Positions 740 to 21,120 of a DNA stretch of 27,041 nt are shown piece by piece. Source of the DNA: a virus; the IMG/VR virus record IMGVR_UViG_3300027365_000051, positions 1 through 27,041 of that record; one strand, written 5' to 3'. The notes beneath the pieces were generated by a model. That model was not told the origin of the DNA. It did not search any database and saw only the letters and a list, made by a program, of their open reading frames with translations. A program made the position numbers and the translations under genes. Position 1 is the stretch's first letter. Every line of letters starts with the position of its first letter.

Positions 740-1438
740 TTACATCCTGCCCCCACGCCAAACAACCCGCCCAACAACATTCAACACATCCACCGTCGTC
801 TCCAGTTCCCTATATGTCTTATTATCGCTGCTCACAATCACCTGGTCACCGAAGCCGCGCTGCAGCCGCTTAACCAGCACGTCGCCATTGTTGCGCAGCA
901 CATGGATCGCACCGTCAATGATCCCCTTTTGGCTTAAGTCGACCAGGAGCACGTCGCCATCGGCCACCGTCGGCTCCATGCTGTCGCCGCGGGCGGTCAC
1001 GACAGCCAACTTGTCGACGATCAACCCCATGCGCTTGACCCACTGGCGGCGAAACGCCATAGATTCATAAGGCTTTTCGTCATTCTCCAAAAAAGAGCCG
1101 TGGCCGGCGCTCACCTCGACATCATATCGAGGCACCAGAGCATACTCACCGGATAAAACAACACCTTCCGCTAAATTCCCCCAGGTAAGGTTTTCTTCTC
1201 CAGAGTGGCTGTGTCCTCGAGGATCTGCCAACATTGCCCCCTCACCTGTTGCAAGCCAGGCCATGCTTACCCTCCCTGCCTTGGCCATTTCTTCCAGTGT
1301 ATTTAATGGTGGGAATGCTTCCCCGCGTAAATAACGACGAATGGTCCCTTCAGATAATCCGCACCTGGAGGCAAACTCCCGGTTTGATTCCCCCTTGAGT
1401 GCGATTGCAAGGCGATCTTTAAATGCGTCAGAGTTCAT
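740..1438 (-). CDS. CI/LexA-type phage repressor (HTH plus S24 peptidase)
   Basis: This 232-aa protein should bind operator DNA and maintain lysogeny. The N-terminal HTH is at about residues 18-40 (REFASRCGLSEGTIRRYLRG). The C-terminal S24 autocleavage domain has the nucleophile S153 in GDSMEPT and the base K190 in VKRLQR. An Ala-Gly bond at 111-112 is the likely cleavage site. These parts are those of SOS-inducible repressors, so RecA-stimulated self-cleavage is expected, unlike the Mu c repressor, which lacks a peptidase domain. It is divergent from the early operon and its start abuts repeated AACTCTGACC operators. A leftward promoter can be read around 1488-1520 (minus strand TATAGA), overlapped by an operator, implying autoregulation. 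Confidence 0.93.
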   Translation of the reverse strand: MNSDAFKDRLAIALKGESNREFASRCGLSEGTIRRYLRGEAFPPLNTLEEMAKAGRVSMAWLATGEGAMLADPRGHSHSGEENLTWGNLAEGVVLSGEYALVPRYDVEVSAGHGSFLENDEKPYESMAFRRQWVKRMGLIVDKLAVVTARGDSMEPTVADGDVLLVDLSQKGIIDGAIHVLRNNGDVLVKRLQRGFGDQVIVSSDNKTYRELETTVDVLNVVGRVVWRGGRM

Positions 1439-8628: not shown

Positions 8629-8632
8629 CCAA

Positions 8633-8740
8633 GCGAAACCGGCTTCGGCCGGTCGCTCCGGGGTGGTGCCCGGGGCCTGATGAGCAGCCAATTTGCCCGC
8701 CGGGGTGCATCAACCCTCCTGGCCCCGGTGGGACTTTTTA
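8633..8740 (+). terminator. Two hairpins and T-run in the early-operon gap (attenuator candidate)
   Basis: The first hairpin is ACCGGC (8638-8643), UUCG tetraloop, GCCGGT (8648-8653), flanked by further GCGA/TCGC complementarity. The second pairs CCCGCCGGGG (8696-8705) with CCCCGGTGGG (8723-8732, one G-T pair), followed by ACTTTTTA, which has terminator character. The gap splits the early operon into two coupled blocks. A leaky terminator here would lower expression of the 8761-11355 genes, including gemA and mor. An in-frame TTG start at 8625 could extend the next gene through this region but I consider that less likely. Confidence 0.45.
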
Positions 8741-9154: not shown

Positions 9155-9324
9155 GCGGCCAGCCCTGCACCGCCAAAACCGAAGTCTGGGCGCGGGTGGT
9201 CGGGTTTTTCCGGCCGCTCAAACAGTGGAACAAAGGCCAGCGCGCCCAGTACGACGCCCGCACCCCGTACCGCCCCGGCGTAGGGGCGCCGCTTGCTGCG
9301 CCCGACTCTGACCAGGAGGGTTGA
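9151..9324 (+). CDS. Small protein resembling the NrdD glycyl-radical tail (57 aa)
   Basis: Residues 10-37 (TEVWARVVGFF then PLKQWNKGQRAQYDAR) resemble the C-terminal glycyl-radical segment of anaerobic class III ribonucleotide reductases (NrdD), typically written as (R)V(V/C)GY(L/F)RPVxxWNxGKxxEFxxR. The candidate radical glycine is G18. The zinc-binding CxxC pairs that flank this region in NrdD are missing; only C6 remains. It could be a stand-alone glycyl-radical module like YfiD, a phage spare part for host NrdD, or a decoy. The last residues (PGVGAPLAAPD) are encoded by a short palindromic repeat, so the C-terminus may be altered. Confidence 0.72.
   Translation: MSGQPCTAKTEVWARVVGFFRPLKQWNKGQRAQYDARTPYRPGVGAPLAAPDSDQEG
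9280..9306. repeat. Degenerate GTAGGGGC palindromic repeat inside a coding region
   Basis: The 27 bp start GTAGGGGCGC, contain the GCTTGC centre and end GCGCCCGAC, an imperfect palindrome. This is the form of the short GTAGGGGCGxxx palindromes dispersed in many bacterial genomes, and the same core appears in perfect form at 26619-26646. Here it is translated as the C-terminal residues of the NrdD-tail-like protein. Confidence 0.5.
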
Positions 9325-10016: not shown

Positions 10017-10822
10017 AGCTGCGCTGCCCCGTCTGCCACTCATCCAACAGCATCGAGGCCTACACCGCCGACGAGGCCGGCCGCGAGCTGCTGCTGCTGC
10101 TCGCCGGCAGCGGCGCGCTGTTTCGGCCCCTGGTGCACTACCTCGGCTGTTTCCGCGCCGCCGGCCGCGATCTGGCCCACGACCGCGCCCTGCGGCTGGC
10201 CCGCGAAGTGTTAGATCTCGGCGCCGATCCCCGAGCCCTGGGCGCCGCCCTGGTCGAGACCGTCGAAGCGATGCGCGCCAAACGCGAGCAGGGCGATGTT
10301 CGCCCCTTGAAAAACCACAACTATCTCAAACGGGTGCTCGAGGGGATGCCCGCCCTGGCCCCGGCCCTGCAGCCATCCGGCCAGAGCGCCCTCACCAGCC
10401 CCGCCGCGCCGAGCGCCCGGACCCGCAGCAAAACCCTGATCGCCGACCAGGTGCTGGCCGACTGGGCCGGTGAGCACTGGCTGCGCGTCGAGGTCGCCCA
10501 CGGTCTGCGCGCTCTGCTGGCGCTGCCGCTCTACAAATCCCCCGAGGCCGACGCCATCGACCGCACCGCCTCTCTCTGGGAGCGCGAGCTGAGCCGCTGC
10601 GGGGTCGAGGTCGAGAACATCGACCGCGAGCGGCTGCAAAAGGGTTTCGGCGGTCTGCTCAGCGCCGTCAAGGGCAAATTCCCCGAGCCCTCGGAACTGC
10701 TGCCCTACCTGCCCCGCCGCATCGAGCGCGACAAGCTTGCCGCCCCAGGGCCGAGCGCCGAAGAGATCGAACGGGGCAAGCAGTTTATGGCCGAGGCCGT
10801 CAAACGCTTTGGAGGAGGCTGA
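10013..10822 (+). CDS. Late-early protein with N-terminal zinc knuckle (269 aa)
   Basis: C5-x2-C8 at the N-terminus (LRCPVCHSSNSIEAYTADEAGREL) probably forms a half zinc ribbon. The rest is helical, with NHNYLKRVLEG in the middle and a C-terminal region ending GGLLSAVKGKFPEPSELLPYLPRR, IERGKQFMAEAVKRF. The middle and end recall replication-initiation or helicase-loader-like phage proteins, but I cannot assign a family. It overlaps both neighbours (ATGA, TGATG) and is therefore co-translated with mor. Confidence 0.76.
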   Translation: MKLRCPVCHSSNSIEAYTADEAGRELLLLLAGSGALFRPLVHYLGCFRAAGRDLAHDRALRLAREVLDLGADPRALGAALVETVEAMRAKREQGDVRPLKNHNYLKRVLEGMPALAPALQPSGQSALTSPAAPSARTRSKTLIADQVLADWAGEHWLRVEVAHGLRALLALPLYKSPEADAIDRTASLWERELSRCGVEVENIDRERLQKGFGGLLSAVKGKFPEPSELLPYLPRRIERDKLAAPGPSAEEIERGKQFMAEAVKRFGGG

Positions 10823-11355
10823 TGGAGCACCTGGAGCACTACCCCGAGATCCTGCTCGACCTGCGCGACAAGATCGCCGAGCTGATCGGCGACCCGCAGG
10901 CCGCCTTTGCCATCACCGAGCATATTCGCGCCGAGCGCGGCGGCCGCAACCACTACCTGCGCCGGGGGCGCAAGCGCAAGCCCGCCCCCGCTGCGCCGGA
11001 TGAGCAGCAAGGGCTCTTCGGCCCCGTTGAGCAGGGGCCGGAACCGCCTCCGGAGGCGCCCGAGTGGATCGTGCGCCTTGGCCAGGCGGCCGGACAAATA
11101 CTGGCCGAGCGCGGGCTTGTATCTGAGCAGGCCGAGGCCGTTGCCGAGCTGGTGCGCGCCGAGCTCACCGGCGAGAGGGCCTATATCCCCCAGGGCCAGA
11201 GCTTCGAACTCGCCCGCCGCGATGCGGATATTTTCAAGCGATTTCGCCGCGCGAACATCGATGCGCTATGCCAGGAGCACGGGATCTCGGAGCAGCAGGT
11301 CTACGCTGTATTGCGCAAGGAGTACGGCCGGCGGCAGCGGCGGCTGTTTGATTGA
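10822..11355 (+). CDS. mor: Mor-type transcription activator, with duplicated dimerisation-like segment
   Basis: This 177-aa protein is the last gene of the early operon, where Mu-like phages carry Mor/C activators of middle and late genes. Residues about 83-170 are a complete Mor domain: a dimerisation part (GERAYIPQGQSFELARRDADIF) and a C-terminal HTH (NIDALCQEHGISEQQVYAVLRK). Residues 27-52 look like a second, truncated copy of the dimerisation part (AFAITEHIRAERGGRNHYLRRG against AEAVAELVRAELTGERAYIPQG), joined by a Pro/Ala linker. Only one Mor/C homologue is visible, so it probably activates all late units. Confidence 0.92.
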   Translation: MEHLEHYPEILLDLRDKIAELIGDPQAAFAITEHIRAERGGRNHYLRRGRKRKPAPAAPDEQQGLFGPVEQGPEPPPEAPEWIVRLGQAAGQILAERGLVSEQAEAVAELVRAELTGERAYIPQGQSFELARRDADIFKRFRRANIDALCQEHGISEQQVYAVLRKEYGRRQRRLFD

Positions 11356-11521
11356 GGTGATGAGAGTGGTGCTTGACACAAAAACCGCAATGGGCTACCG
11401 TTTCTGTGCCGCTGGCAAAATCCAGCGGTCGGGTTTAGCGGCCCGGGAAATCGACGGCGGACTCAACCGCCGCAGTTTTACGGCGGTGTTTTTGTGTCCG
11501 GTGCATGGTCGCGCTTCAGTT
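11356..11521 (+). promoter_or_regulatory. Structured leader with promoter and terminator-like hairpins upstream of C4 RNA
   Basis: TTGACA at 11373-11378 with TACCGT at 11396-11401 (17-nt spacer) gives a weak promoter just after mor. An inverted repeat, GACACAAAAACCGC (11375-11388) against GCGGTGTTTTTGTGTC (11483-11498), encloses two hairpins: CCGCTGG/CCAGCGG (11409-11428) and ACCGCCG/CGGCGGT (11466-11487), the latter followed by GTTTTTGTG and so terminator-like. The whole leader and C4 RNA also form one open frame from ATG 11360 to 11872, which would extend the 11657 gene to 170 aa. Its residues (YRFCAAGK...GGLNRRSFTAVFLC) recall translated leaders of Ash/Icd-type loci. Confidence 0.6.
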
Positions 11522-11596
11522 GGGCGCGCCATGCGGGGAGCCTTCGGGCTCGCCGGTTTCCGTCGATACCGGTCCGCTAACCCGCATGGCGCGCCC
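11522..11596 (+). ncRNA. c4: C4-type antisense RNA
   Basis: A perfect 16-bp stem (GGGCGCGCCATGCGGG at 11522-11537 with 11581-11596) encloses two hairpins: GAGCC-UUCG-GGCUC (11538-11551) and CCGGT/ACCGG (11553-11572) with a 10-nt loop. A single-stranded UCCGCUAA follows. This is the architecture and sequence style of the P1/P7 C4 antisense RNA family, in which C4 blocks translation of the downstream icd/ant genes of the same transcript. Two C4 segments are exactly complementary to the leader of the 11657 gene: 11559-11568 against 11640-11649, and 11572-11580 against 11607-11615. Confidence 0.85.
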
Positions 11597-11606
11597 TCTT
11601 TCCGTT

Positions 11607-11650
11607 TTAGCGGACGGCGAGGGGGATTTCAGCAACCCCTATCGACGGAG
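11607..11650 (+). promoter_or_regulatory. C4 target sequences overlapping the ribosome site of the next gene
   Basis: TTAGCGGAC (11607-11615) pairs with C4 bases 11572-11580, and TATCGACGGA (11640-11649) pairs with C4 bases 11559-11568. The second target contains the first three bases of the GGAG Shine-Dalgarno at 11647-11650, six nt before ATG 11657. Pairing should block ribosome access, as described for C4 on its target in P1. Confidence 0.8.
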
Positions 11651-11656
11651 AAAACC

Positions 11657-11872
11657 ATGTACACACCCCGCCCCCAGGACCGCCTCGACGAGGCTGTCCA
11701 TAAACTCAGCTTTATCCACGACGCCTTCTCCCAACCCATCGCAGTCAACGAACGCTTCTCCCTCAGCGACGACGGCCTCATCGGCCTGGGCCTGATCCTG
11801 TGGGAAATCCGCGCCCAGATCAACCAGGCCGGTGATGAGCTACTCAACCTGTTGCGCGCAAAGGAGGCATGA
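11657..11872 (+). CDS. Short C4-controlled protein in the icd position (71 aa)
   Basis: ATG at 11657 follows CGACGGAGAAAACC. The protein (RLDEAVHKLSFIHDAFSQP...GLGLILWEIRAQINQAGDELL) is helical and resembles small phage proteins with an LSDDGLxGLxxILxEI pattern, of unknown function. In P1 the equivalent position holds icd, a division inhibitor, but no homology to Icd is visible. Its ribosome site is the predicted C4 target, and its stop lies next to the start of the Rha-like gene, so translation of both is probably coupled. Confidence 0.75.
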   Translation: MYTPRPQDRLDEAVHKLSFIHDAFSQPIAVNERFSLSDDGLIGLGLILWEIRAQINQAGDELLNLLRAKEA

Positions 11873-11874
11873 CC

Positions 11875-12459
11875 ATGGTTGCTCAAGTTCTGCAGTTCCC
11901 ATCTGACGCCGTCACGCTTAAAGGCGGCCACCCTGTCACCACCAGCCTGAAAGTTGCCGAGGTGTTCAACAAACGCCATCGTGACGTCCTGCGTACCGTC
12001 CGCGAGCTGGAGTGTTCGGATGAGTTCCGAGTGCGCAATTTTGCGCACTCATCCTTCGTCAACACCCAGGGGAAAGAGCAGCCAATGTTCGAGGTCGCCA
12101 GGGATGGACTAGTCTTCCTGGTCATGGGGTTCACTGGTCCGGAGGCATCTCGGCGCAAGGAAGCCTACATTCACGCTTTCAACCAAATGGAAGCGGCCTT
12201 GCGGGAGGAGCCCCCGGTGGCCGCACAGCGCACCATCGAGATTGATGAAGTTGAATTCCTGAGAATGCGGGTCGAACTGGCCGAGCTGAAGCTGGAGAAG
12301 GTTCAAAACGAAAAGCGCAAGCGGCGCGCCTTCACCCCGGCGGAGAAAGCCATGATGTTGGCTATGCGCGCCCAGGGCAAGGGAGTTTCGGCCATCGCCG
12401 AGCGGCTTGGCCGCAGCAAGAACAGCATCGGTTCGTACCTGCGGCAACAACAGGGATGA
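11875..12459 (+). CDS. rha: Rha/Ant-like phage regulator with C-terminal HTH
   Basis: Residues about 17-110 are a pRha domain (VTTSLKVAEVFNKRHRDVLRTVREL, then FEVARDGLVFLVMGFTGPEASRRKEAYIHAFNQME). A charged helical linker leads to an HTH at about 152-190 (FTPAEKAMMLAMRAQGKGVSAIAERLGRSKNSIGSYL). Rha/Ant proteins can interfere with lysogeny or host functions, and the ant gene of P1, also C4-controlled, encodes an antirepressor. I choose ATG 11875 because AAGGAGG is 7 nt upstream; ATG 11869 would have only 1 nt of spacing. The length (194 aa) is normal. Antirepressor function is inferred from context. Confidence 0.88.
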   Translation: MVAQVLQFPSDAVTLKGGHPVTTSLKVAEVFNKRHRDVLRTVRELECSDEFRVRNFAHSSFVNTQGKEQPMFEVARDGLVFLVMGFTGPEASRRKEAYIHAFNQMEAALREEPPVAAQRTIEIDEVEFLRMRVELAELKLEKVQNEKRKRRAFTPAEKAMMLAMRAQGKGVSAIAERLGRSKNSIGSYLRQQQG

Positions 12460-12561: not shown

Positions 12562-12963
12562 ATGAAGATTTTGCATACACTTTCAAAATCAGACATTTAT
12601 GAAAACGATCGGACTCCGGTTGATCGGCTTGCGTTCAGGGTCGTTACGCCTGGGTACCAGTACAGCCCGGAGAAAAAACACCAAGCGCCGCACTGGGAGA
12701 TCCCGCCACTCACCAGGCAACCCCCAAGAAATGCGCCAGACATGACAGGGGTCAGGTTTGGTCGATTCACCGTTGTGGGATACCTGGATAGCTCAAAACG
12801 GGTGGGAACTAAATGGCTGTGCCGGTGTGATTGTGGGCGTTTTGAGCAGAGGAGCGGCAAGGCAATACGGAACCAAAACAACACTGACGACAGGTGTCAG
12901 CAATGCCAGCATGTTGATTACCTGCAAAAAACCGACAAAAAGAGACGGGCCGGGGTTATTTGA
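12562..12963 (+). CDS. AP2/HNH-associated zinc-ribbon protein (133 aa)
   Basis: The second half holds the segment that precedes AP2 and HNH domains in phage homing-type proteins: D60-M-T-G-V-R-F-G-R-F-T-V, then KWLC87-R-C89-D-C91-G and a final C112-x2-C115 pair. No AP2 or HNH nuclease domain follows, so this is either a stand-alone zinc-ribbon protein or a remnant. The N-terminal 60 residues look non-conserved, and an alternative in-frame ATG at 12742 would give just the core. Base composition is AT-richer than the late genes, suggesting cargo. Confidence 0.66.
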   Translation: MKILHTLSKSDIYENDRTPVDRLAFRVVTPGYQYSPEKKHQAPHWEIPPLTRQPPRNAPDMTGVRFGRFTVVGYLDSSKRVGTKWLCRCDCGRFEQRSGKAIRNQNNTDDRCQQCQHVDYLQKTDKKRRAGVI

Positions 12964-13712: not shown

Positions 13713-14174
13713 ATGCAGCTGACCGAGCACTTCAGTTTGGCCGAACTCTCCCGCTCCAACACCGCCACCCGGCGCGGGCTCGACAACACCCCCCCAACCT
13801 GGGCGGTGGCCAATCTGCGCCTGGTGGCGCACGCCCTGGAGCATGTGCGCAGCCACTACGGCCTGCCCGTGCGGGTCTATTCCGGATACCGCAGCGAGAC
13901 GGTCAATAACGCCTGCGGCGGGTCAAAAACCTCGGCCCACAAGCTGGGTCTGGCCGCCGATTTCGTAGTACCCGGGGAGCCGGTGATCGAGGTTTGCCGC
14001 TGGGTCGAGCGCAACCTGACCGGCTTCGACCAGGTCATCTACGAGTTCGGCCCGGGCGGCTGGATCCACCTCGGCCTCGGCGATGATCGCCGCCCTATCC
14101 GCCAGCAGAGCCTGACCGCCAGCAAGCGCGGCGGCAAAACCGTCTATCAGCTCGGCATCCTGGAGGTGGTTTGA
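13713..14174 (+). CDS. M15-family peptidoglycan peptidase (endolysin)
   Basis: This 153-aa enzyme should cut cell-wall peptide crosslinks at lysis. The zinc-site motif SAHKLGLAAD gives H76 and D83, and W117-I-H119 gives the second zinc histidine, as in Peptidase_M15_3 (DD-carboxypeptidase-like endolysins). No signal peptide is visible, so release through a holin is expected. The ribosome site is ACGAGGCCCC. It is the first gene after the candidate late promoter and overlaps the next small gene by 3 nt (TGATG context). Confidence 0.92.
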   Translation: MQLTEHFSLAELSRSNTATRRGLDNTPPTWAVANLRLVAHALEHVRSHYGLPVRVYSGYRSETVNNACGGSKTSAHKLGLAADFVVPGEPVIEVCRWVERNLTGFDQVIYEFGPGGWIHLGLGDDRRPIRQQSLTASKRGGKTVYQLGILEVV

Positions 14175-18301: not shown

Positions 18302-19855
18302 ATGCTCTACGACGCCTACAACCGACCGGTCCGCACCCAGGAGCTCACCCGCGAGCACGCCGCCCCCAGCCTCACCGGGGTGCGCACCCTCTGGAACGAC
18401 ACCGTCGCCTCCGGCCTCACCCCGGCCCGCCTGGCGCTGCTGCTGCGCGAGGCGGCCGAGGGTGAGCACAATGCCTACCTGACCCTGGCCGAGGAGATGG
18501 AGGAGCGCGAGTTGCACTACGCCTGCGAGCTCGGCAAGCGCAAGCTCGCCGTCTCCCGGCTGCCGGTGACCGTCGAAGCAGTCAGCGACAGCCCCCGCGA
18601 CATCGAGCTGGCCGACGCCGTGCGCGCCCTGGTCAAGCAGGCGGGCTTTCGCTGGTTGGTCAAGGATCTGCTCGACGGCCTCGGCAAGGGCTTCGCCGTC
18701 TGTGAAATCGCCTGGGACCGCTCCGGATCCCGCTGGACGCCGCGGAGTTACACCTGGCGCGACCCCCGCTTCTTCCAGTTCGACCAGCTCACGCGCTCCA
18801 AGATCCGGCTGCGCGACGAGGCCGACCTGGCCGAGGGGATCGAGCTGGCCCCTTTCTGCTTCATCACTCACACTCCCAGGCTCAAGAGCGGCATCCCCAT
18901 CCGTTCGGGCCTGGCCCGGCTGGCGGCCTGGGCCTTCATGTGCAAAAGCTACTCGGTCAAGGACTGGCTGGCCTTCGCCGAGGTCTACGGCATGCCGCTG
19001 CGCCTGGGCAAGTACGACTCCGGCGCCACCCCCGAGGATAAAGCCGTGCTGCGCATGGCGGTGGCCAACCTCGGCAGCGACGCCGCGGCCATCTTCCCCA
19101 AGGGGATGGAGATCGAACTGGTCGAGGCTGGCAAAGGCGCCGGCACCGACTTCTTCGAGCGCCTGGCCAACTACTTCGACGCCCAGCTCAGCAAGGGGAT
19201 TCTCGGCCAGACCGCCAGCGCCTCCGGCACCCCCGGCAAGCTGGGGGATGAGAAGCTGCAGGCCGAAGTGCGCGACGACATCCGCGACGACGACGCCGAG
19301 CAGCTCGAGGAGACCCTGCAGCGCGACCTGGTCAAGGCCTTCATCGACCTGAATTACGGCCCACAAGAGAACTACCCCCAGCTGCAGCTTCGGGCGGTGG
19401 AGAAGGAAGACACCGCCGCCCTGGTTTTGGCCCTCAAAGAGCTGGTGCCGCTGGGGCTGCGGGTCGAGCAGAGCGTAGTGCGCGACAAAATCGGCCTGCC
19501 CGACCCCGACAAAAACGCCAAGCCCGAGGATCTTCTCGGCGCCCCAGCGACTGCGGTGCCCGCGCCGCCGGTGGCCAAGGCGGCCAACCGCGAGCAGCCC
19601 GGCGAGTTCACCCCCGAGCAGCAGGCCCTCGAAGAGCTGGCCGACCGCGGCACGGCGGCCGCAACCCAGGCGCTGCGGGGTATTGAGGAGCGCCTGGTGG
19701 CCGTGGTGCGCGAATCCGCGAGCTATGAAGAGGCGATGGAGAAGGTGCTGGCGCTATGGCCGGAGATGCACCTGGACGATCTGGCCGCGCTGCTCGAGGC
19801 CTGCCTGATCGGCGCCCAGGGCGCCGGGGTGCGGGATGCCGGAGGCGGTGACTGA
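18302..19855 (+). CDS. Portal protein (Mu gp29-like, DUF935)
   Basis: This 517-aa protein has the DUF935 portal signature: an N-terminal helical region with ARLALLLREAAEG, a core containing FRWLVKDLLDGLGKGFAVCEIAWDR and WTPRSYTWRDPRFFQF, and a C-terminal wing. It starts directly after the terminase stop (TAG ATG) and its stop overlaps the F-like gene by one base. It forms the dodecameric ring through which DNA enters and leaves the head. Confidence 0.95.
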   Translation: MLYDAYNRPVRTQELTREHAAPSLTGVRTLWNDTVASGLTPARLALLLREAAEGEHNAYLTLAEEMEERELHYACELGKRKLAVSRLPVTVEAVSDSPRDIELADAVRALVKQAGFRWLVKDLLDGLGKGFAVCEIAWDRSGSRWTPRSYTWRDPRFFQFDQLTRSKIRLRDEADLAEGIELAPFCFITHTPRLKSGIPIRSGLARLAAWAFMCKSYSVKDWLAFAEVYGMPLRLGKYDSGATPEDKAVLRMAVANLGSDAAAIFPKGMEIELVEAGKGAGTDFFERLANYFDAQLSKGILGQTASASGTPGKLGDEKLQAEVRDDIRDDDAEQLEETLQRDLVKAFIDLNYGPQENYPQLQLRAVEKEDTAALVLALKELVPLGLRVEQSVVRDKIGLPDPDKNAKPEDLLGAPATAVPAPPVAKAANREQPGEFTPEQQALEELADRGTAAATQALRGIEERLVAVVRESASYEEAMEKVLALWPEMHLDDLAALLEACLIGAQGAGVRDAGGGD

Positions 19856-21120
19856 TGCAGCTCGCCTTCGACCTCAAACCCGAAGCAGCCCTGGAGTTCT
19901 GGCGCGGCAAGGTACAACTCTCGCCCTCCCAGTTCCGCGCCCTCTCCCGCGAGCCCAAGATCCGCGCCTTCGCGGTGTCAGGCATCGCCAAGGGCGACGA
20001 GCTGGCCACGGTCTACCAGGCGCTGACCAAGTCTCTGGAGGCAGGCACCCCCTTCGCCGAGTTTCAGCGCGACTGCGCCGAGATCTTTGAAAACCGAGGC
20101 TGGACCGGCCGCAAAGCCTGGCGCATCGACAACATCTTTCGCACCAACATCCAGACCGCCTACAACGTCGGCCGCTACCAAGAGCTGCAACGCATCAAGG
20201 CCAAGCGCCCCTTCTGGCGCTACAGCGCGGTCAACGACCGCCGCACCCGCCCGGCCCACCGTGCCATGCACGGCAAGATTTTTCCGGCCGATCATCCCTT
20301 CTGGGATACCTGGTTTCCGCCCAATGGTTTCCGGTGCAGATGCAGCGTCGATTCGGTCGGCCCGGACGAGATCGAGGCCAACGGCTGGCAGGTCGAAACC
20401 AAAGACCCCACCGGCAAGCTCTACGAGCCGACCGATCCGGTCACCGGGGTGCGGCTGCCGGCGCGGCTGGCCATGCCCGACCCGGGCTGGGATTTTCACG
20501 TGGGCAAGGCGGGCTGGGAGGGCTTGACTCCCGGGCCGGGCGATGCCGGGCCGATTGTGCCGCTGCTGCCGCGCTCCCTGGGTGCCGCCGCGGGCAAGCC
20601 TGCTCTGGCCACGATCGACCCGCGCCACATCAAACCCTATGTTGCGGATGACCTGATGCCTAAAGGGCTGGCGCCGGAGGCCTATGTCGGGGCGTTTCTG
20701 CGAGAGTTCGGCATCGAGACTCTGGGTGGGGAGACTCTGATCAGCATCCCGGGAGCCGACAGGCTGCTTCCGGTTAATAAGGGGTTGTTCATCGACAAGG
20801 CAACCCGCGAATGGAAGGTCATCACCACCGACGGGCGGGAGCAATACCTCAGGCTGCTGGCCCGGACCATCCGCGCACCGTTCGAGGTCTGGCTGGTCCC
20901 GGCCGAGGTGAGTGGCCGCAAGTATGCAGTGATCAACCTGCTCCGGCTGTTCGCTGGAGAGAGGGGAAAGGTCGGCGGGTTTGTGGTCTGGAGTCTGGTG
21001 GGGGATCGCTGGATGAGCTCGACGGCCTTCGCGCCCAAGCTCGCCCAGGGAGAAAAGAAGCTGTTGCAGTATCTGGAGCAACAGCGGCAGGGGCGGCTGC
21101 TGTTTCGCGAGACGCTGTAA
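19855..21120 (+). CDS. F: F-like minor head protein fused to a PBECR-type nuclease domain
   Basis: Residues about 45-175 are the Mu F/SPP1 gp7 head-morphogenesis domain (FRTNIQTAYNVGRYQEL, RRTRPAHRAMHGKIFPADHPFWDTWFPPNGFRCRC). The C-terminal part (about 260-421) follows a linker and resembles the phage barnase-EndoU-colicin-RelE-like (PBECR) nuclease domains often fused to F proteins: GLFIDKATREWKVITTDG, EVWLVPAE, FVVWSLVGDRW, SSTAFAP and GRLLFRE. It may be carried in the virion and injected, or be inactive structural cargo. Codon choice is a little less GC-biased in the C-terminal part than in the F domain, as for an acquired module. Confidence 0.92.
   Translation: MQLAFDLKPEAALEFWRGKVQLSPSQFRALSREPKIRAFAVSGIAKGDELATVYQALTKSLEAGTPFAEFQRDCAEIFENRGWTGRKAWRIDNIFRTNIQTAYNVGRYQELQRIKAKRPFWRYSAVNDRRTRPAHRAMHGKIFPADHPFWDTWFPPNGFRCRCSVDSVGPDEIEANGWQVETKDPTGKLYEPTDPVTGVRLPARLAMPDPGWDFHVGKAGWEGLTPGPGDAGPIVPLLPRSLGAAAGKPALATIDPRHIKPYVADDLMPKGLAPEAYVGAFLREFGIETLGGETLISIPGADRLLPVNKGLFIDKATREWKVITTDGREQYLRLLARTIRAPFEVWLVPAEVSGRKYAVINLLRLFAGERGKVGGFVVWSLVGDRWMSSTAFAPKLAQGEKKLLQYLEQQRQGRLLFRETL

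Follow-up and report, generated by a model that had tools for sequence, protein, structure and literature searches.

The 27,041-nt stretch of viral DNA considered here (the window; IMG/VR record IMGVR_UViG_3300027365_000051) very probably holds a complete C4 immunity module of the P1 immI type, carried by a transposable phage and working by the mechanism described below. The parts are all present and in the order seen in P1; the RNA has the C4 structure, it pairs exactly with four target sites, and this pairing covaries across C4 loci. The target sites were named after P1: the C4 linker (a') pairs with a1 and a2, which lie farther from the start codon, and the C4 loop (b') pairs with b1 and b2, the last of these covering the Shine-Dalgarno sequence. 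The features of the module and its surroundings are as follows:

740-1438, minus strand: S24/CI-like repressor, identified by protein family searches
10822-11355, plus strand: Mor transcription activator (PF08765), immediately 5' of the module
11373-11401, plus strand: predicted promoter, TTGACA and TACCGT separated by 17 nt, 9 of 12 consensus positions, identified by comparison across C4 loci
11408-11493, plus strand: IsrK-like leader RNA with a1 and b1, ending in a terminator (Rfam isrK, RF01394)
11435-11441, plus strand: target site a1 (TTAGCGG), 7 bp, exact complement of the C4 a' linker
11450-11457, plus strand: target site b1 (ATCGACGG), 8 bp, exact complement of the C4 b' loop
11466-11487, plus strand: stem of the intrinsic terminator of the leader, followed by GTTTTTGTGT
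11516-11602, plus strand: C4 antisense RNA, from the Rfam C4 match and the fold
11559-11568: b' loop of C4
11572-11580: a' linker of C4
11607-11615, plus strand: target site a2 (TTAGCGGAC), 9-bp exact complement of the a' linker at 11572-11580
11640-11649, plus strand: target site b2 (TATCGACGGA), 10-bp exact complement of the b' loop at 11559-11568
11657-11872, plus strand: 71-aa ORF (ORF71), the first ORF after C4, in the icd slot
11869-12459, plus strand: Rha-family protein with a C-terminal HTH, 196 aa, in the ant slot (Pfam PF09669, E = 2e-28)
13713-14174: endolysin

A C4 architecture had been proposed for an RNA of about 75 nt at 11522 in a previous, sequence-only reading of this DNA, and is borne out by both a covariance-model search and the predicted fold. 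The Rfam C4 model (RF01695; curated cut-off 45 bits) gave a full-length match at 11516-11602 on the plus strand, with a score of 69.1 bits (E = 9.6e-12). Folded alone, the segment 11520-11598 adopts the C4 shape, with a long outer stem, a UUCG hairpin and a target-binding hairpin (-58.1 kcal/mol, z = -7.1). The mature RNA probably corresponds to ≈11521-11597. The location assigned to the RNA in that reading was essentially right, and the full system reaches upstream to 11373 and downstream to 12459.

Both of the downstream pairings that had been predicted, 10 bp including part of the GGAG of the gene at 11657 (b2) and 9 bp further up (a2), are exact. The b2 site overlaps the Shine-Dalgarno sequence of ORF71: it extends into the GGAG and stops 7 nt short of the ATG at 11657. 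Because short runs of 6-7 nt occur often in GC-rich DNA, the complementarity might be due to chance in a leader of this composition. When the leader was shuffled with its dinucleotides preserved (n = 5000), however, a run as long as a2 was reached in 0.3% of the shuffles and one as long as b2 in 0.12%, and no shuffle (0/5000) reached both. Only one of the window's 647 ATGs, counted on both strands, is preceded within 22 nt by a 10-nt match to the loop. Together, the absence of joint a2 and b2 runs from the shuffles, the E-value of the Rfam match (9.6e-12) and the covariation across loci refute chance pairing, to which we assign practically no probability.

The C4 RNA was detected in 62 of 398 genomes sampled from a single phylum, the one to which G009 (a proteobacterium) belongs, and is therefore widespread. 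From these genomes and from viral contigs, 40 distinct C4 loci could be cleanly located, carrying 36 different loops and 25 different linkers. The loop matched its own downstream leader with a mean exact run of 8.28 nt, compared to 4.84 nt for the leaders of other loci; the corresponding values for the linker were 7.05 and 4.69 nt. The same advantage of own over other targets was present for the upstream leader (permutation p < 0.0002 in each case, uncorrected for relatedness). Since hardly any two loci share a loop sequence, the matching is poorly explained by common descent. Both downstream sites were found in order in 38 of the 40 loci, and all four sites in 31. Covariation had been put forward as a check on the pairing, and the signal is strong, with both loop and linker fitting their own targets best.

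The upstream half of the module, consisting of the promoter, the leader with a1 and b1 and the terminator, is an addition to the sequence-only reading. The match of the leader to Rfam isrK (11408-11493) passes narrowly, at 51.4 bits against a cut-off of 50, and the c4-a1b1 model (RF03163) matched at 11395-11449 with 43.4 bits, slightly below its cut-off of 46.7. Measured on the sequence alone, the promoter lies 33 nt ahead of a1, and a matching promoter is found 31-33 nt ahead of a1 in most of the 39 C4 loci compared. A stricter, generic promoter scan called no promoter, and that at 11373-11401 was recognised only by the cross-locus comparison, the generic scan having missed it because of the weak -10 hexamer (TACCGT).

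Downstream of C4, ORF71 is a probable leader gene that would be translationally coupled to the ant-slot gene, with which it shares a 4-nt overlap (11869-11872). Among 55 ORFs compared with phmmer, ORF71 was weakly similar to the first ORFs after C4 in two other loci, L010 and L003 (E = 3.6e-7 and 5e-5, respectively). The protein in the ant slot also matches the PHROGs Rha and Ant families and TIGR02681, and is predicted to be an antirepressor. Protein searches of viral contigs found no close relatives of Mor or ORF71, and searching phage records with the region as DNA gave only a short match, in rha. The antirepressor gene is followed by a 133-aa ORF (12562-12963) similar to phage HNH endonucleases (phrog_374) and to phrog_18493.

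In P1, C4 represses the synthesis of Ant, which antagonises the C1 repressor (PMC8546580, PMC8201110). By analogy to P1 and Gifsy-1, the module in the window would provide a second, RNA-based immunity beside the S24 repressor, which is presumably the ultimate target of the Rha-type antirepressor. We infer that C4 is expressed and processed, that translation of ORF71 and rha is coupled, that the Rha-type antirepressor acts on the S24 repressor, and that transcription reads through from mor. In the lysogen, the promoter at 11373 would produce a short IsrK-like leader, and read-through of the terminator would yield a longer RNA, from which C4 would be processed. On the same mRNA or on a sister molecule, the b' loop would then base-pair with b2 and the a' linker with a2, masking the ribosome site of ORF71. 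Translation of ORF71 would thereby be blocked and, through the coupling via the 4-nt overlap, so would synthesis of the antirepressor, leaving the S24 repressor active. The upstream a1 and b1 sites would let the leader RNA compete for C4, and on induction, read-through of the lytic operon via mor would overrun C4.

We considered the possibility that the module is a genuine C4 switch whose output is not an antirepressor of S24, with Rha acting instead on genes of the host or of superinfecting phages and the switch guarding an accessory gene. The genes downstream of C4 loci do vary widely, including Rha, other Ant types and unknown ORFs, and the presumed repressor box was not found at the C4 promoter. 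Conversely, the Rha protein matches PHROGs anti-repressor families, and both P1 and Gifsy-1 have antirepressor or antirepressor-like proteins in the ant slot (PMC4825925). An accessory output is unlikely, if still the most serious competitor to an antirepressor that acts on S24. The boxes in question (ACTCTGACC) are candidate repressor operators: three exact copies and one with a mismatch lie around the start of the S24 repressor (1446-1557), and there is another exact copy at 9305-9313. No copy was found near the module promoter (11340-11410), where the true operator may differ, and a search for an operator common to the repressor region and the C4 promoter gave nothing convincing.

The phage in the window is identified as transposable by its MuA, MuB, Mor, Mu Gp27, Mu portal, Mu F, protease and gpT proteins, and the module was correctly placed between mor and the lysis genes of a Mu-like phage by the sequence-only reading. 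(The Mu F-like protein, at 19855-21120, has a C-terminal PBECR2 nuclease-like domain.) When ≈95 MuA-related virus records were searched for C4, two further records, L079 and L084, were found to have one beside a Mu-type core. The module was not seen in the ≈93 others, although these absences are weak because many of the records are fragments. The C4 match scored 51.2 bits in L079 and 42.4 bits in L084; the latter is under the cut-off of 45, but its four target sites all pair exactly. Both records have GemA and Mor ahead of the module (the Mor match in L079 is slightly below the Pfam cut-off), and the order GemA, Mor, promoter, a1 and b1, C4, a2 and b2, antirepressor is the same as in the window. 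Unlike in the window, there is no ORF in the icd slot, and the antirepressor gene follows C4 directly. In L079, this gene encodes a Rha protein 29% identical to that in the window; in L084, the contig ends inside an apparent Rha-like ORF. The MuA proteins of L079 and L084 are 38-39% identical to that of the window and 53% identical to each other. The nearest MuA relative, in L012 (71% identical), is without C4. The module is thus mosaic, being present in L079 and L084 and absent from L012, yet it recurs at one place, after mor, in three divergent phages.

The weak -10 hexamer and the lack of the module in L012 could also indicate that the module, once acquired by recombination, has since decayed or fallen silent and is no longer expressed. 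Decay should erode exact pairing at four sites, however, and here all four sites are exact for a loop unlike those of other loci, both ORFs are open and the spacings are like those in P1. We therefore regard decay as very unlikely and retain the functional immunity module as the best explanation.

Four host genomes contained both C4 and MuA relatives, with C4 lying outside the MuA loci examined. Another candidate, G527, was rejected as a further case: its record (L185) has two sub-threshold C4-like matches in tandem at 38518-38865 (43.6 and 33.8 bits), ≈36 kb from MuA and in a different arrangement. A type II hammerhead ribozyme was found in the window at 8631-8693 (63.7 bits), and L003 and L008 likewise have a hammerhead ribozyme near their C4. 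Ribozymes near Mu-like phage genes have been reported previously (PMC10085705).

Lysogeny control in transposable phages is usually described in terms of protein repressors. The results described here extend the P1-type antisense immunity switch to this group. C4 is known from Proteobacteria and phages (Weinberg et al. 2010, PMC2864571), and the switch type itself is not new. We found no report of C4 in transposable phages in the open-access papers searched; within that literature, the Mu-like setting with a Rha-type output appears to be unreported.

The window shares its structure and target arrangement with the Rfam C4 (RF01695) and c4-a1b1 (RF03163) families, and the closest comparison is with immI of P1. 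In the search that gave 69.1 bits for the window, the annotated c4 of P1, which is 77 nt long, scored 68.8 bits, and the pairing test run on P1 recovered its annotated a1, b1, a2 and b2 sites. Both modules have the order promoter, a1, b1, C4, a2, b2, small ORF, antirepressor, with spacings that agree: the annotated promoter P1c4 is 31 nt ahead of a1, compared to 33 nt in the window. In both, b2 is at the ribosome site and the small ORF and ant overlap by 4 nt. The P1/P7 immI layout claimed for this region therefore holds for the order, the targets and the overlap, but not for the proteins. ORF71 (71 aa) showed no significant similarity to P1 Icd (73 aa), and thus no detectable kinship, and the ant slot holds a Rha and HTH protein of 196 aa, where P1 has Ant1, of the ANT/KilAC type and 347 aa long. 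P1 has the C1 operator Oc4 at its c4 promoter, whereas no ACTCTGACC box was found near the promoter in the window, and a second, repressor-controlled promoter as in P1 was not found in the window. Finally, the carrier here is a transposable phage.

Gifsy-1 (L199-L201, NC_010392) provides a second comparison. Rfam isrK and C4 matched there on the minus strand at 34240-34316 and 34131-34214, respectively, so that C4 corresponds to nt 103-186 when isrK is taken to begin at nt 1. With its start at nt 107, the 45-codon orf45 therefore runs through C4. As in the window, an IsrK leader with a terminator is followed by C4 and then by an antirepressor-like gene, but Gifsy-1 lacks a counterpart of the 71-aa ORF that the window has after C4, and no separate ORF intervenes before the antirepressor gene. 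The Gifsy-1 a1 site (TTGGCGT, nt 26-32) pairs with the a' of C4 (ACGCCAA, nt 158-164), and a2 (nt 192-198) and b2 (nt 222-228) precede anrP. The compensatory mutant pairs published for this locus, G28A/C162U and G31A/C159U (PMC4825925), fall precisely on the base pairs 28-162 and 31-159 between a1 and a'. The paper describing IsrK, orf45 and AnrP does not mention "C4 RNA" (PMC4825925); its authors proposed that a single transcript takes up alternative structures, and judging from their AUG and stop-codon mutants, translation of orf45 matters as well (PMC4825925). In our reinterpretation, the compensatory mutants are experimental support for the a1-a' pairing, with the leader acting as a decoy in trans. 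This suggests that IsrK is a C4 decoy, in which case the small RNA would activate the antirepressor because it titrates C4. By a slight balance of probability, we favour a broader picture in which a widespread family of phage switches carries its own decoy for C4, an anti-antisense RNA in the form of the IsrK-type leader. In this picture, the IsrK-orf45 system of Gifsy-1 is a C4 switch with orf45 on the C4 RNA, and the three layers of leader, C4 and antirepressor have likewise been taken up by transposable phages beside mor, where the lytic operon can overrun the switch. The comparison with IsrK offers a unifying reading of the Gifsy-1 system, and may matter more than the module in the window itself.
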